From Sulfolobaceae archaeon (GTDB lineage: Archaea > Thermoproteota > Thermoprotei_A > Sulfolobales > Sulfolobaceae), in assembly GCA_026627305.1 (NCBI GenBank), contig JAPNVD010000027.1, positions 1 through 64,000 on the forward strand: DNA of 64,000 nt, in the 5' to 3' direction. Every line of letters begins with the position of its first letter. Position 1 is the first letter of the stretch. Below the pieces are notes generated by a model. It saw only the letters and a program-made list of their open reading frames with translations. It searched no databases and was not told where the DNA came from. Made by a program: the position numbers and the translations under genes. Below are positions 9,084-13,082 of the stretch, piece after piece.

Positions 9084-9293
9084 ATGATAAGAATAACAGT
9101 CCATTTAATACGAGAGAAAAAGAGTTTAGAGCTAGAGGTGCCAGATAATTTTACAGTTAGTGACCTATTAAAAAAATTAGGTTATTCGATACAAGGTACT
9201 GTGGTTTTACGCGATTCTACTCCAGTAATAGAGTCAGAAAAACTGCAAAACAACGATGTCTTAGAAATCTTTCTTACTGCATCAGGAGGGTAA
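9084..9293 (+). CDS. Ubiquitin-like small modifier (Urm1/SAMP; MoaD/ThiS family)
   Basis: A 69-residue beta-grasp protein ending exactly in Gly-Gly (FLTASGG), with hydrophobic strands IRITVHLI, LELEVPD, TVSDLLKKLG, TVVLRDSTPV and DVLEIFL typical of MoaD/ThiS/Urm1. The free diglycine is the site of adenylation and thiocarboxylation or protein conjugation. In Sulfolobus a Urm1-like protein of this kind has been shown to modify proteins and feed the proteasome. It could alternatively serve as sulfur carrier for molybdopterin or tRNA thiolation. The next gene starts 2 nt after its stop. Confidence 0.82.
   Translation: MIRITVHLIREKKSLELEVPDNFTVSDLLKKLGYSIQGTVVLRDSTPVIESEKLQNNDVLEIFLTASGG
9284..9290 (+). 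promoter_or_regulatory. Shine-Dalgarno site inside the diglycine codons
   Basis: AGGAGGG spans the final GGA GGG (Gly-Gly) codons of the Urm1-like gene and ends 5 nt before the ATG of the HEAT-like gene at 9296. It is a near-perfect archaeal Shine-Dalgarno and indicates translational coupling of the two genes. Confidence 0.7.
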
Positions 9294-9295
9294 TT

Positions 9296-10021
9296 ATGAC
9301 TGATGATAAAATTGAAGAAATTTTAGAGGCAGTAAAGAATAACGATATATATACGATAAGTAAGAATCTCAGGACAATTTTCAATCTTATTAAAAGTCCA
9401 GTAAAAGAAGAACGTGATACAGGATGGAAAATAATTGAAAGTTTGATAGAAAATAACAGGATAGTTTTAACCGATAAAGATAAGAGATTCCTGAAATCCC
9501 TCATGTGGAATAAATTGCAAGGGATTAGGGATGATGCTTGGTCTCATCTATACATATATAAAGTTCTAGGAATAACGGGTTTTGATGACCTTTTAACTGC
9601 TAAAAGCGATAAGATAAAATGGAGTGTCTGGTCACATGTTTTAGATATAATACAACTATCACTGATTGACGTAAAAACCGTACAAAAGTATAGTGATTCG
9701 TACTGGAGATTACTAAAGAGTTATTATCCTACTATTAGAAAGAAAGCATGGAGGTTATTTCCTAAATTAGTAACGTTTGGAATTTTTAATTTAAAAGAAA
9801 ATAGTAAACAAAAAGAAAGATATTATGAATTTTTAAAACATAACAAATATAGTGTAAGAATATATGCATGGGAAGCTTCAATAGAACTATTAAAAAACAG
9901 CATAATTATTAAATCTGAGATAATTCCTCTAATAAGCTATTTAGAAGAGTTAACTAAGGTAAATGGGCAACTGGGCAAAAGAGCTAAAAAAGTACTAAAT
10001 TACATTCAAAATCTTCCTTAA
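9296..10021 (+). CDS. HEAT-like alpha-helical repeat protein, function unknown
   Basis: A 241-residue all-helical protein. A recurrent motif of basic residue, 2-3 residues, then Trp heads a helix at RDTGWKIIESL (~40), RDDAWSHLYIY (~78), KWSVWSHVLDI (~108), RKKAWRLFPKL (~148) and RIYAWEASIEL (~188), with a Trp-less last copy GKRAKKVLNYI (~227). The period is close to 40 residues, as in HEAT/ARM-type protein-binding solenoids, but I do not recognise a named family. The start sits on a strong SD within the diglycine codons of the preceding Urm1-like gene, which argues for a functional link. Its 3' end overlaps the convergent membrane-protein gene by 27 bp. Confidence 0.6.
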   Translation: MTDDKIEEILEAVKNNDIYTISKNLRTIFNLIKSPVKEERDTGWKIIESLIENNRIVLTDKDKRFLKSLMWNKLQGIRDDAWSHLYIYKVLGITGFDDLLTAKSDKIKWSVWSHVLDIIQLSLIDVKTVQKYSDSYWRLLKSYYPTIRKKAWRLFPKLVTFGIFNLKENSKQKERYYEFLKHNKYSVRIYAWEASIELLKNSIIIKSEIIPLISYLEELTKVNGQLGKRAKKVLNYIQNLP

Positions 10022-11680
10022 CATAAGAATTATAAAAGGAGAGATGAGAGAGATCACATCAATCGACATCAGAAAGTCTTGTATAGTAGTATATGCGAAT
10101 CTAGAAATATTTCCTCTTAAAAGTATGTAATTGTTATAGTCTGTAGCGTTCGTCCAGTAAGGGTTATAGTAAATTAGTACTACTGCATTCCTTTCACCTA
10201 TTATCTCCCCATTTTCTAGTTTTACATTAGCGGGAGTACCGTTAAGAAAGTATGAAATTCCATGAAATCCTTCATTATAGTATATGTAGTATTCGTTTGA
10301 GACATTATAAACTAACACTAAGTAAGAATAATTTAGTTCTTGCGTAGAAATAATGTATTTAATGCCCTGCAGTGTTAAATTCTCTTCAGATAAATTTGTT
10401 ATTACTCCTGATATCATTGGTATGAAAGATTGATAAACCGGCGATATTGTACCTGTTGAAGAATACATTGCTGTAAATAAGGGATCATGTTCACTTAAAT
10501 ACCGATAAATTGTAGACAGTGCAGTATAATTTACCTCATATTTAACTGGATTAAATGTAAATAAATCGTATGTATCGTGAAGTGGGTAGTATGCAATAGA
10601 GGGAAGAAAACTTGATAAGATAATTATTAAAATTACAAAAAGAAATAGTTTTTTTATTCTTACATGAATAAGTGAAATAGATATTAGTCCTATGGCAAAC
10701 ATAAATATCTTACTTTCAAACGTGGTGAGAGAGAGGATAATGCTCCCTATTAATGGTATATGTACAGGTGTTATTGAAAAATAAGTGAATATGAACAGCA
10801 AGAGTCCTAAAGGAATAGTGGAGGAAATTAGAAGCCTATTCTTTTCATAAATTCCAAAAATAACTAATAAAATAAATATTGAGATTAATAAGAATGTTGG
10901 AAAACTAGATACCTCGATAACTGGGAACGTAGATATGTGTGAAACAGTAGGCACTACAAATAGCTCAAACGCTATTTCTTGACTAACGTTACTCAAAAAA
11001 GCAATAACGTCAGCAAGTAGTATCAAAAGAATGCTCTTAAAATGTAGCTTAATTGAGTCCACGATAGCTATAATAAGGATAGGTACTTCAAATAGGAATG
11101 CGTAGTAAAACGCTTGATAAAAGAGTACGTTTAGAACAGAAACTATAATAGTTAAAATAATAAAATAGTTTAAATTTTTATATTTGTATATTTTATATGA
11201 TAAATAATATACTAATGGCATGAACGAGTAAATTAACAAAACGGTTGGAGAATCACCAGTGTAAAAGATTTGTGCAGTGCCTGGATTTAAAATATAGATG
11301 AAAGGAACTATATACCTTAAAATTATGCGAAGAGGGCTCTTCTTAAGATCGTTAGTAAAGTATTTTGCAACATAATAAAAGCTTATAGTGCCTACTGGAA
11401 AAGGAATGAAAGCAAATATCTTAATTAAATTCCAAGATCCAAAAATTAGAGAAAGATAATAATAGATATAAACTCCTAACCCTATTTCGCTTACTGCTCC
11501 ATGTGCATAATAGTCGATTGGTGTACTTGATGGAAATTGTAAATGTGGTGGCGGTGGTTCAAGATCTATTAAAGAAAAATAGCTAGCTACTAATAGTCGG
11601 TAAAATACTAAAACATATATTACAACTACTACAATTGAGAAGAGTAAAGATTCCTTATCTACGTTCAGCTTTAGCCTCAT
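9995..11680 (-). CDS. Polytopic membrane protein with extracytoplasmic domain (possible GT-C-like)
   Basis: A 561-residue protein. Residues ~12-385 hold roughly ten hydrophobic helices. A hydrophilic, Asn/Tyr-rich stretch with several N-x-S/T sequons (~390-530) follows, then a last helix (SLISPFIILMLRKI). An acidic/proline loop after the first helix (SLIDLEPPPPH) and the long tail are reminiscent of GT-C membrane glycosyltransferases, but no catalytic motif can be assigned with confidence. The start overlaps the upstream 77-residue membrane protein by 26 bp, so they are co-expressed. The 811-residue protein at 19040-21475 has the same overall layout. Confidence 0.5.
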   Translation of the reverse strand: MRLKLNVDKESLLFSIVVVVIYVLVFYRLLVASYFSLIDLEPPPPHLQFPSSTPIDYYAHGAVSEIGLGVYIYYYLSLIFGSWNLIKIFAFIPFPVGTISFYYVAKYFTNDLKKSPLRIILRYIVPFIYILNPGTAQIFYTGDSPTVLLIYSFMPLVYYLSYKIYKYKNLNYFIILTIIVSVLNVLFYQAFYYAFLFEVPILIIAIVDSIKLHFKSILLILLADVIAFLSNVSQEIAFELFVVPTVSHISTFPVIEVSSFPTFLLISIFILLVIFGIYEKNRLLISSTIPLGLLLFIFTYFSITPVHIPLIGSIILSLTTFESKIFMFAIGLISISLIHVRIKKLFLFVILIIILSSFLPSIAYYPLHDTYDLFTFNPVKYEVNYTALSTIYRYLSEHDPLFTAMYSSTGTISPVYQSFIPMISGVITNLSEENLTLQGIKYIISTQELNYSYLVLVYNVSNEYYIYYNEGFHGISYFLNGTPANVKLENGEIIGERNAVVLIYYNPYWTNATDYNNYILLRGNISRFAYTTIQDFLMSIDVISLISPFIILMLRKILNVI

Positions 11681-11932: not shown

Positions 11933-12541
11933 ATGAGCCAACAGCTAGACGTTATTAAAAAGCTTCTCGAAATCAAGAGTTATATAGCTAATAATCTTGA
12001 AAAAGAAGGGTTAATGCTGTTGAAAGAACTTAAAGATAAAGGAGTATTGAATAAAGATTTTGCTAGAGAGAATAACTGGTATGTATGTAATATAATTGAA
12101 ATTATAAGCTGCAATAACATATTTGAATTTCTCAATGGATATGCGGAACTTTTCGATATAACTAGGTGTAAAAATATAAAGAGAGTATTGGAATGCTCTA
12201 TATCGAGAAATATAGATAATACATATGTGGATATCGTGCTTGAAGAATATAAGAAAAGGCATGATATCAATGCTGTTAATGAGATACTTCAACTAAATAA
12301 AGAAAATCTAACTAATGCATCAATCATGCTTAAATTACTAAGATTCTATGAAGATCTAAATGATATACGTGATATAGAAAATTTAGTTACGATAGTAATT
12401 TCAAATATAAATAGAATCCAGGACGGTAAGATGTTATATGTTATGTCACAAGAATTTAAAAAATATCTAAATAAAGAAAGTTATGAATATATTCTAAAAA
12501 GAGCTTGTGAGTTAGGGTATAAGGATGCATGTATTTCATAA
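11933..12541 (+). CDS. Hypothetical helical protein
   Basis: 202 residues, predicted almost entirely helical, with leucine/isoleucine-rich amphipathic helices of ~35-residue period (e.g. AVNEILQLNKENLTNASIMLKLLRFYEDL) and a C-terminal KRACELGYKDAC that resembles the end of a Sel1/TPR-type repeat. Five cysteines are scattered without a metal motif. It is divergent from the membrane-protein pair to its left. No family is recognised; a TPR-like scaffold is the best guess from composition. Confidence 0.5.
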   Translation: MSQQLDVIKKLLEIKSYIANNLEKEGLMLLKELKDKGVLNKDFARENNWYVCNIIEIISCNNIFEFLNGYAELFDITRCKNIKRVLECSISRNIDNTYVDIVLEEYKKRHDINAVNEILQLNKENLTNASIMLKLLRFYEDLNDIRDIENLVTIVISNINRIQDGKMLYVMSQEFKKYLNKESYEYILKRACELGYKDACIS

Positions 12542-12641: not shown

Positions 12642-13082
12642 ATGCTAAGCTTATCATTTACTATTAGGGAAGCAAGACCAACTGATTGGCACCAAATATA
12701 CGAGCTATATAACTCTCTTCCTCTTGAGGATTTATATATGAGATTCTTCTGTTTGCATAGATTTTCTGAAGAGGAAGCTAAGAGATTAGTTACTCTGAAC
12801 GATCATGTAACAATAGTAGTGGAAGTAGCTGGTAGGATAATAGGTGAAGGATCTCTTTATAATACTGGAGAATTTTCCTTGGTTGTAGCACCTGATTTTA
12901 GAGGCTATGGTATTGGAACGGAAATAGTAAAGACGTTAATAGAAAAAGCGAAACAATTAAAAATGAAAAAGATATTCTTTTACGTGCTAAGGGATAATAT
13001 ACCAATGATAAGGATAGGTAAGAAATTAGGGTTTAAATTTATTGAAGAAGAAGGAGAATTAATGGGTTATTTAGAGTTATGA
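12642..13082 (+). CDS. GNAT acetyltransferase, Pat-like
   Basis: A 146-residue GNAT domain. Acetyl-CoA-binding motif A is FSLVVAPDFRGYGIGTEIVKTLIE, with the pyrophosphate loop RGYGIG at residues 87-92, and motif B is FFYVLRDNIPMIRIGKKLGF. The N-terminal segment EDLYMRFFCLHRFSEEEAKRL matches the YxRFF stretch found in Pat-type protein lysine acetyltransferases. In Sulfolobus, Pat acetylates the chromatin protein Alba, so this gene is a candidate for that role. The GNAT fold is clear; the substrate is inferred. Confidence 0.75.
   Translation: MLSLSFTIREARPTDWHQIYELYNSLPLEDLYMRFFCLHRFSEEEAKRLVTLNDHVTIVVEVAGRIIGEGSLYNTGEFSLVVAPDFRGYGIGTEIVKTLIEKAKQLKMKKIFFYVLRDNIPMIRIGKKLGFKFIEEEGELMGYLEL

Follow-up and report, generated by a model that had tools for sequence, protein, structure and literature searches.

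UblA of T. kodakarensis, a ThiS-family ubiquitin-like protein (Ubl) of about 70 amino acids, is a carrier for tRNA thiolation and is also conjugated to proteins (PMC11323500). S. acidocaldarius possesses tRNA with thiolated U54, and its genome contains both ttuA and ttuB (PMC7668247, PMC7912444). In S. islandicus, Urm1 is stated to be the only Ubl (PMC12625751). Table 1 of Makarova and Koonin (2010) connects arCOG00535 in Sulfolobales with arCOG03852, which is uncharacterized, the arCOG00535 representative being denoted by a GI number that we read as that of an S. acidocaldarius protein (PMC2948915). A search for arCOG03852 in other literature found no further mention. Judged by that table entry, the association is very probably the pair of genes examined here, a Ubl gene followed by a gene for a HEAT-repeat protein (hereafter HEAT). 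We infer arCOG03852 to be HEAT, a DUF1955 protein being the alternative.

The pair lies in a stretch of 64,000 nucleotides (the window) on a contig from a Sulfolobaceae genome that is 79.5% complete (G000). The first gene (9084-9293, plus strand) encodes a 69-aa protein that ends in TASGG and thus carries a C-terminal Gly-Gly. Its ubiquitin-like identity, proposed in the preliminary description, is confirmed by matches above the Pfam cut-offs to both SAMP2 (PF21965, 33.8 bits, cut-off 27) and ThiS (PF02597, 31.6 bits, cut-off 22.5); the scores with the NCBIfam equivalogs SAMP2 and ThiS are below both cut-offs. A profile of the family retrieves solved SAMP2 (5lda, E 1e-10), PF1061 and the TtuB of the TtuA-TtuB complex 5ztb. 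Members are 68-69 aa long and end in ASGG or ATGG, the Gly-Gly being invariant in all 16 aligned Ubls. The window Ubl is not of Urm1 type (it has neither the long form nor the NHGG end), and in 16 relatives Urm1 has a gene of its own. A ThiS-family search of the window's genome returned solely the window Ubl and a MoaD-MoaE-type fusion; it found no Urm1, an absence that is uncertain at 79.5% completeness. One E1-like enzyme is encoded in this genome (PF00899, 223 bits, G000:C34:60294-60983). Taken from sequence comparison, the window Ubl is probably a TtuB sulfur carrier working with a TtuA encoded elsewhere in the genome, and HEAT an independent neighbour in its operon.

Next, we examined the distribution of both genes among 31 Sulfolobaceae genomes. 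HEAT orthologues are present in 30; the remaining genome (G171) has no orthologue proper, and related repeats occur there solely in one large multidomain protein. When conservation of the gene pair was checked, the Ubl was found in 21 genomes, in all 21 directly upstream of HEAT and mostly 1 nt apart from it or overlapping, and none of the 31 contains the Ubl without HEAT. Nine genomes carry HEAT without the Ubl, seven belonging to genus g5 and two to g9. In g5 the ancestral gene order is kept, the Ubl alone missing in its place between glycogen synthase (GlgA) and HEAT. Since g5 is nested in the HEAT tree among Ubl-bearing genera, its lack of the Ubl represents a loss; on that tree the Ubl label must have changed at least twice. 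Following this loss, HEAT in g5 has stayed unchanged at every position conserved among the genomes with the Ubl. According to the ThiS-family census, g5 genomes retain the MoaD-MoaE-type fusion and Urm1; we deduce, in part from Urm1 being the sole Ubl of S. islandicus, that g5 corresponds to Saccharolobus. A scan of named genomes returned nothing with a single HEAT sequence and six named loci with the HEAT alignment.

The gene that follows the Ubl perfectly is a different one. A second PP-loop tRNA thiolase of family TIGR00269 is present in exactly the 21 Ubl-bearing genomes, the other ten having one copy. If phylogeny is ignored, so exact an agreement would arise by chance with a probability of 1 in C(31,10) (about 2e-8). 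The minimum of two changes that the Ubl label requires on the tree are both shared with the thiolase, the co-loss amounting to just two or three independent events. The two thiolase copies form separate clades (support 100/100). The best solved homologue of the second copy is TtuA PH0300 (E 5e-62, versus 8e-37 for NcsA) and that of the universal copy is NcsA 6scy (E 3e-47), which places the second copy closest to the U54 thiolase TtuA and the universal copy closest to the U34 thiolase NcsA. All thiolases of both clades contain SGGKDS, together with CxxC and Cys-Pro cysteines at positions expected for Fe-S ligands. In the window's genome, the TtuA gene is located at G000:C38:20384-21355 (minus strand). 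In the nearest Ubl-family matches examined outside Sulfolobaceae (L056, L060), the gene for the Ubl and one for a TtuA-like PP-loop enzyme overlap. The simplest reading of these patterns is that the TtuA-TtuB pathway is missing altogether from Saccharolobus-type genomes and from two further lineages; no paper among those searched was found to state such a loss of TtuA/TtuB.

The commonest gene order in the Sulfolobaceae loci is GH57, glycogen synthase, Ubl, HEAT, DAO-type FAD oxidoreductase, DUF1955, pyruvate kinase, where GH57, glycogen synthase and pyruvate kinase are names that we take from our own reading of the neighbouring sequences. HEAT adjoins the DAO gene in 20 of the 23 loci examined, including all Ubl-less g5 loci examined, and in g9 the two genes are nearby. 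This raises the tentative possibility that HEAT works with the oxidoreductase, perhaps as a subunit for its assembly or docking, with the Ubl simply sharing the operon. The window's genome has retained the DAO gene, as a 63% identical copy, but on another contig (G000:C22) and not beside HEAT; moreover, a protein as basic as HEAT (pI 9.6-10.3) is no obvious partner for a flavoprotein. The interaction is a putative one. The best family match of the DAO protein is D-proline dehydrogenase (340 bits, cut-off 600). In bacteria, thiO and thiS go together. Identification of the DAO protein as ThiO (glycine oxidase) was considered and rejected in view of the D-proline dehydrogenase match, itself below the model's cut-off.

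What the window has preserved of the ancestral order Ubl-HEAT-DAO-DUF1955-pyruvate kinase is, beyond the pair itself, a DUF1955 gene (11933-12541, plus strand; PF09205, E 3e-28), identified as a remnant by synteny. It is followed by a GNAT acetyltransferase-like gene (12642-13082, plus strand) that is found near the same cluster in relatives (synteny cluster c8). Between HEAT and DUF1955, an open reading frame of 561 codons on the minus strand (9995-11680), whose product resembles a membrane protein, has no significant Pfam or NCBIfam match, and its 3' end overlaps that of HEAT by 27 nt. At two loci (L075 and L076) a conserved protein of 276-290 aa belonging to no Pfam or NCBIfam family (cluster c26) is encoded between glycogen synthase and the Ubl; at those g2 and g6 loci that were examined, its gene precedes the Ubl gene.

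HEAT itself (9296-10021, plus strand) is a protein of 241 aa with a pI of 9.6. An AlphaFold2 model based on 29 orthologues is a confident all-helical solenoid (pLDDT 95.4, pTM 0.88), as the preliminary description had anticipated. Repeats headed by a tryptophan motif were also described there, but the motif is basic-x-x-x-Trp and not basic-x-x-Trp: the pairs are R40/W44, K67/W71, R78/W82, K108/W112, R148/W152 and R188/W192, and W137 has no basic residue at -4. No family was recognized for the protein there; it does fall in a known class, HEAT, as indicated both by PF02985 matches in 8 of the 29 orthologues (best E 7e-5) and by Foldseek, which retrieves generic HEAT/ARM solenoids (PP2A scaffold, TOG domains) with TM-scores around 0.5. 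The window protein itself gives no Pfam match, being too divergent for PF02985.

All HEAT orthologues are very basic and share invariant Arg, Lys and Trp residues. Judging from this charge and conservation, HEAT might have nucleic acid, an acidic peptide or a partner enzyme as its ligand. Together with an operon shared with a tRNA sulfur carrier, the same features would fit a tRNA- or nucleic-acid-binding accessory of RNA modification that also serves other enzymes, and hence is kept after the loss of TtuA and TtuB. We regard this role as rather doubtful: the best Foldseek matches include no specific nucleic-acid-binding HEAT family, and among the other conserved neighbours of the pair there is no RNA-modification gene.

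Related repeats occur in further proteins. A HEAT paralogue of about 160 aa is encoded in the window's own genome (contig C3, L087:1338-1844, plus strand), and paralogues of 155-169 aa, some with internal stops, are found in many relatives. An expanded member of the repeat class, a 457-aa open frame with three strong HEAT-profile matches (E 1e-14 to 2e-20), is located at G090:C1:969447-970484. The multidomain protein of G171 (L086:3677-7993, minus strand; 1439 aa) has a SIR2 domain (ThsA-like in PADLOC), an AAA region and C-terminal repeats that are near-identical 40-residue tandem copies of the R-x-x-A-W HEAT type. It resembles a defence-type sensor that employs repeats of the window HEAT's class, and its tandem copies suggest that the repeat has a general ligand-binding role not tied to Ubls.

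Could the window Ubl be mainly a protein modifier of SAMP-like type rather than a sulfur carrier? Its match to the SAMP2 family and the fact that its relatives SAMP2, TtuB and UblA form protein conjugates as well (PMC11323500) speak for such a function. However, the documented modifier in Sulfolobus and Saccharolobus is Urm1 (arCOG00540), a separate gene, and co-loss with TtuA favours a role in thiolation, so that we find a primarily modifying function unlikely. By analogy with SAMP2 and TtuB elsewhere, the window Ubl may nevertheless modify proteins in addition.

The preliminary description saw the pair as a candidate two-component system, in which HEAT would serve the modifier as its own scaffold, receptor, E3-like factor or reader. 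In its favour, the Ubl is in Sulfolobaceae always immediately followed by HEAT and never found without it, and this arrangement leaves room for a one-way dependence of the Ubl on HEAT. Still, dedication of HEAT to the Ubl is very improbable. HEAT outlives the Ubl in nine genomes, the loss in g5 has left no footprint in its sequence, and perfect co-occurrence links the Ubl to TtuA instead; outside Sulfolobaceae, too, the Ubl's companion is a PP-loop thiolase. In addition, the 241-aa sequence of HEAT has no cysteine and therefore no means for thioester or RING E3 chemistry. That HEAT is instead a shared, Ubl-agnostic factor serving both TtuB and Urm1, its Arg/Trp ladder holding Ubl tails, conjugates or tRNA, would account for its survival in genomes that have lost TtuB and kept Urm1, and strikes us as a most improbable reading.

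Finally, we analysed the junction between the two genes. It reads TCA GGA GGG TAA TT ATG, with GGA at 9285-9287, GGG at 9288-9290 and the ATG at 9296. Hence the diglycine codons with one additional base form AGGAGGG (9284-9290, plus strand) five nucleotides before the next ATG, just as initially reported. Since a search of the window's genome yielded no 16S match, we took the 3' end of 16S from G032, a relative (...CTGGATCACCTCAT; also written ...GGATCACCTCAT). It implies GAGGTGA as the ideal Shine-Dalgarno (SD) sequence, with which AGGAGGG shares GAGG, and thus pairs over 4 nt.

GGA GGG, expected to be retained if the codons themselves were conserved as an SD, is private to the window's genome; all 20 relatives with the pair use GGT GGN. 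In most of them, GGTG or AGGTG thereby comes to lie 5-7 nt ahead of the first codon after the stop, and in 16 of the 17 genomes with the 1-nt geometry that codon is NTG, compared with roughly 10-40% NTG among Leu/Val codons. Taking AGGTG, GGTG and GAGG together, such a motif precedes the downstream start by about 6 nt in most genomes. Because of this spacing and of the NTG codons, the initiation region overlaps the diglycine codons. Of 71 closely spaced gene pairs at these loci, 20 likewise have an SD within the upstream gene. The idea that the diglycine codons act as SD is thus plausible, with a match of 4 nt at a suitable distance in the window; the overlap is real but ordinary.

The first Gly codon is GGT in 20 of 20 relatives, against about 28% expected from codon usage. 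We considered selection for an SD or for an internal GTG start as the cause and rejected it on the basis of the Urm1 genes (L126-L141), which end in CAY GGT GGN and have GGT as the first Gly codon in 14 of 16 cases, mostly with no adjacent downstream start. The preference is not specific, and the choice of Gly codons is no evidence for an SD role. GGT preference at Ubl C-termini, here in Urm1 of Sulfolobaceae, is an observation in its own right. At four loci (L022, L024, L028, L030) no ATG, GTG or TTG closely follows the stop, and a GTG start inside GGT-GGN is possible.

The scheme that we favour, with the Ubl as TtuB and HEAT as an independent neighbour, builds on observed homology, fold, gene order, phyletic patterns, the cysteine and PP-loop motifs of TtuA and the presence of an E1. 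The C-terminal glycine of the Ubl would be adenylated by the single E1-like enzyme of the genome and then thiocarboxylated. Its sulfur would pass to TtuA, a presumed [4Fe-4S] PP-loop enzyme, for thiolation of tRNA, with U54 as the likely target in the window organism. The co-directional HEAT gene is presumably co-transcribed, its start being served by the putative SD in the last codons of the carrier. Its product, a basic solenoid, most likely binds through its invariant Arg/Lys-Trp ladder an anionic or extended ligand, possibly nucleic acid or peptide, and would work independently of the carrier, with a tighter link to the DAO-type oxidoreductase.

A speculative modifier-reader system thus gives way to a concrete assignment as TtuB, and the locus cautions us that a conserved operon neighbour is not automatically a pathway partner. 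Loss of TtuB would account for the description of Urm1 as the sole Ubl of S. islandicus. It also leads to the prediction that Saccharolobus-type genomes, apparently lacking TtuA and TtuB, should be devoid of thio-U54, and that Sulfolobus and Saccharolobus should differ in U54 thiolation of tRNA at similar growth temperatures.

Compared with known systems, the window Ubl resembles TtuB, SAMP2 and UblA (ThiS family, arCOG00535) as a beta-grasp homologue of about 70 aa with C-terminal GG and co-occurrence with TtuA and E1, but differs in sharing its operon with a HEAT-repeat gene and not with a thiolase. With Urm1 (Saci_0669, arCOG00540) it has in common the Ubl nature, the C-terminal GG and activation by the same E1 family, whereas Urm1 is encoded at another locus in open frames of 84-109 aa ending in NHGG, is a documented protein modifier, and stays where the window-type Ubl is lost. 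HEAT resembles HEAT-repeat proteins (PF02985) in its helical repeats, whose second helix begins with the VR..A motif, and differs from them by a Trp placed after the canonical Ala in most repeats (Val-Arg-x-x-Ala, then Trp). The arCOG00535-arCOG03852 neighbourhood of 2010 likewise links a ThiS-family Ubl of Sulfolobales to an uncharacterized protein; the table entry carries no HEAT fold, HEAT-only lineages or co-loss with TtuA. Beyond that entry, the present analysis contributes the fold, the lineages that have HEAT only, the Ubl's perfect co-occurrence with TtuA, and control comparisons for the SD claim.
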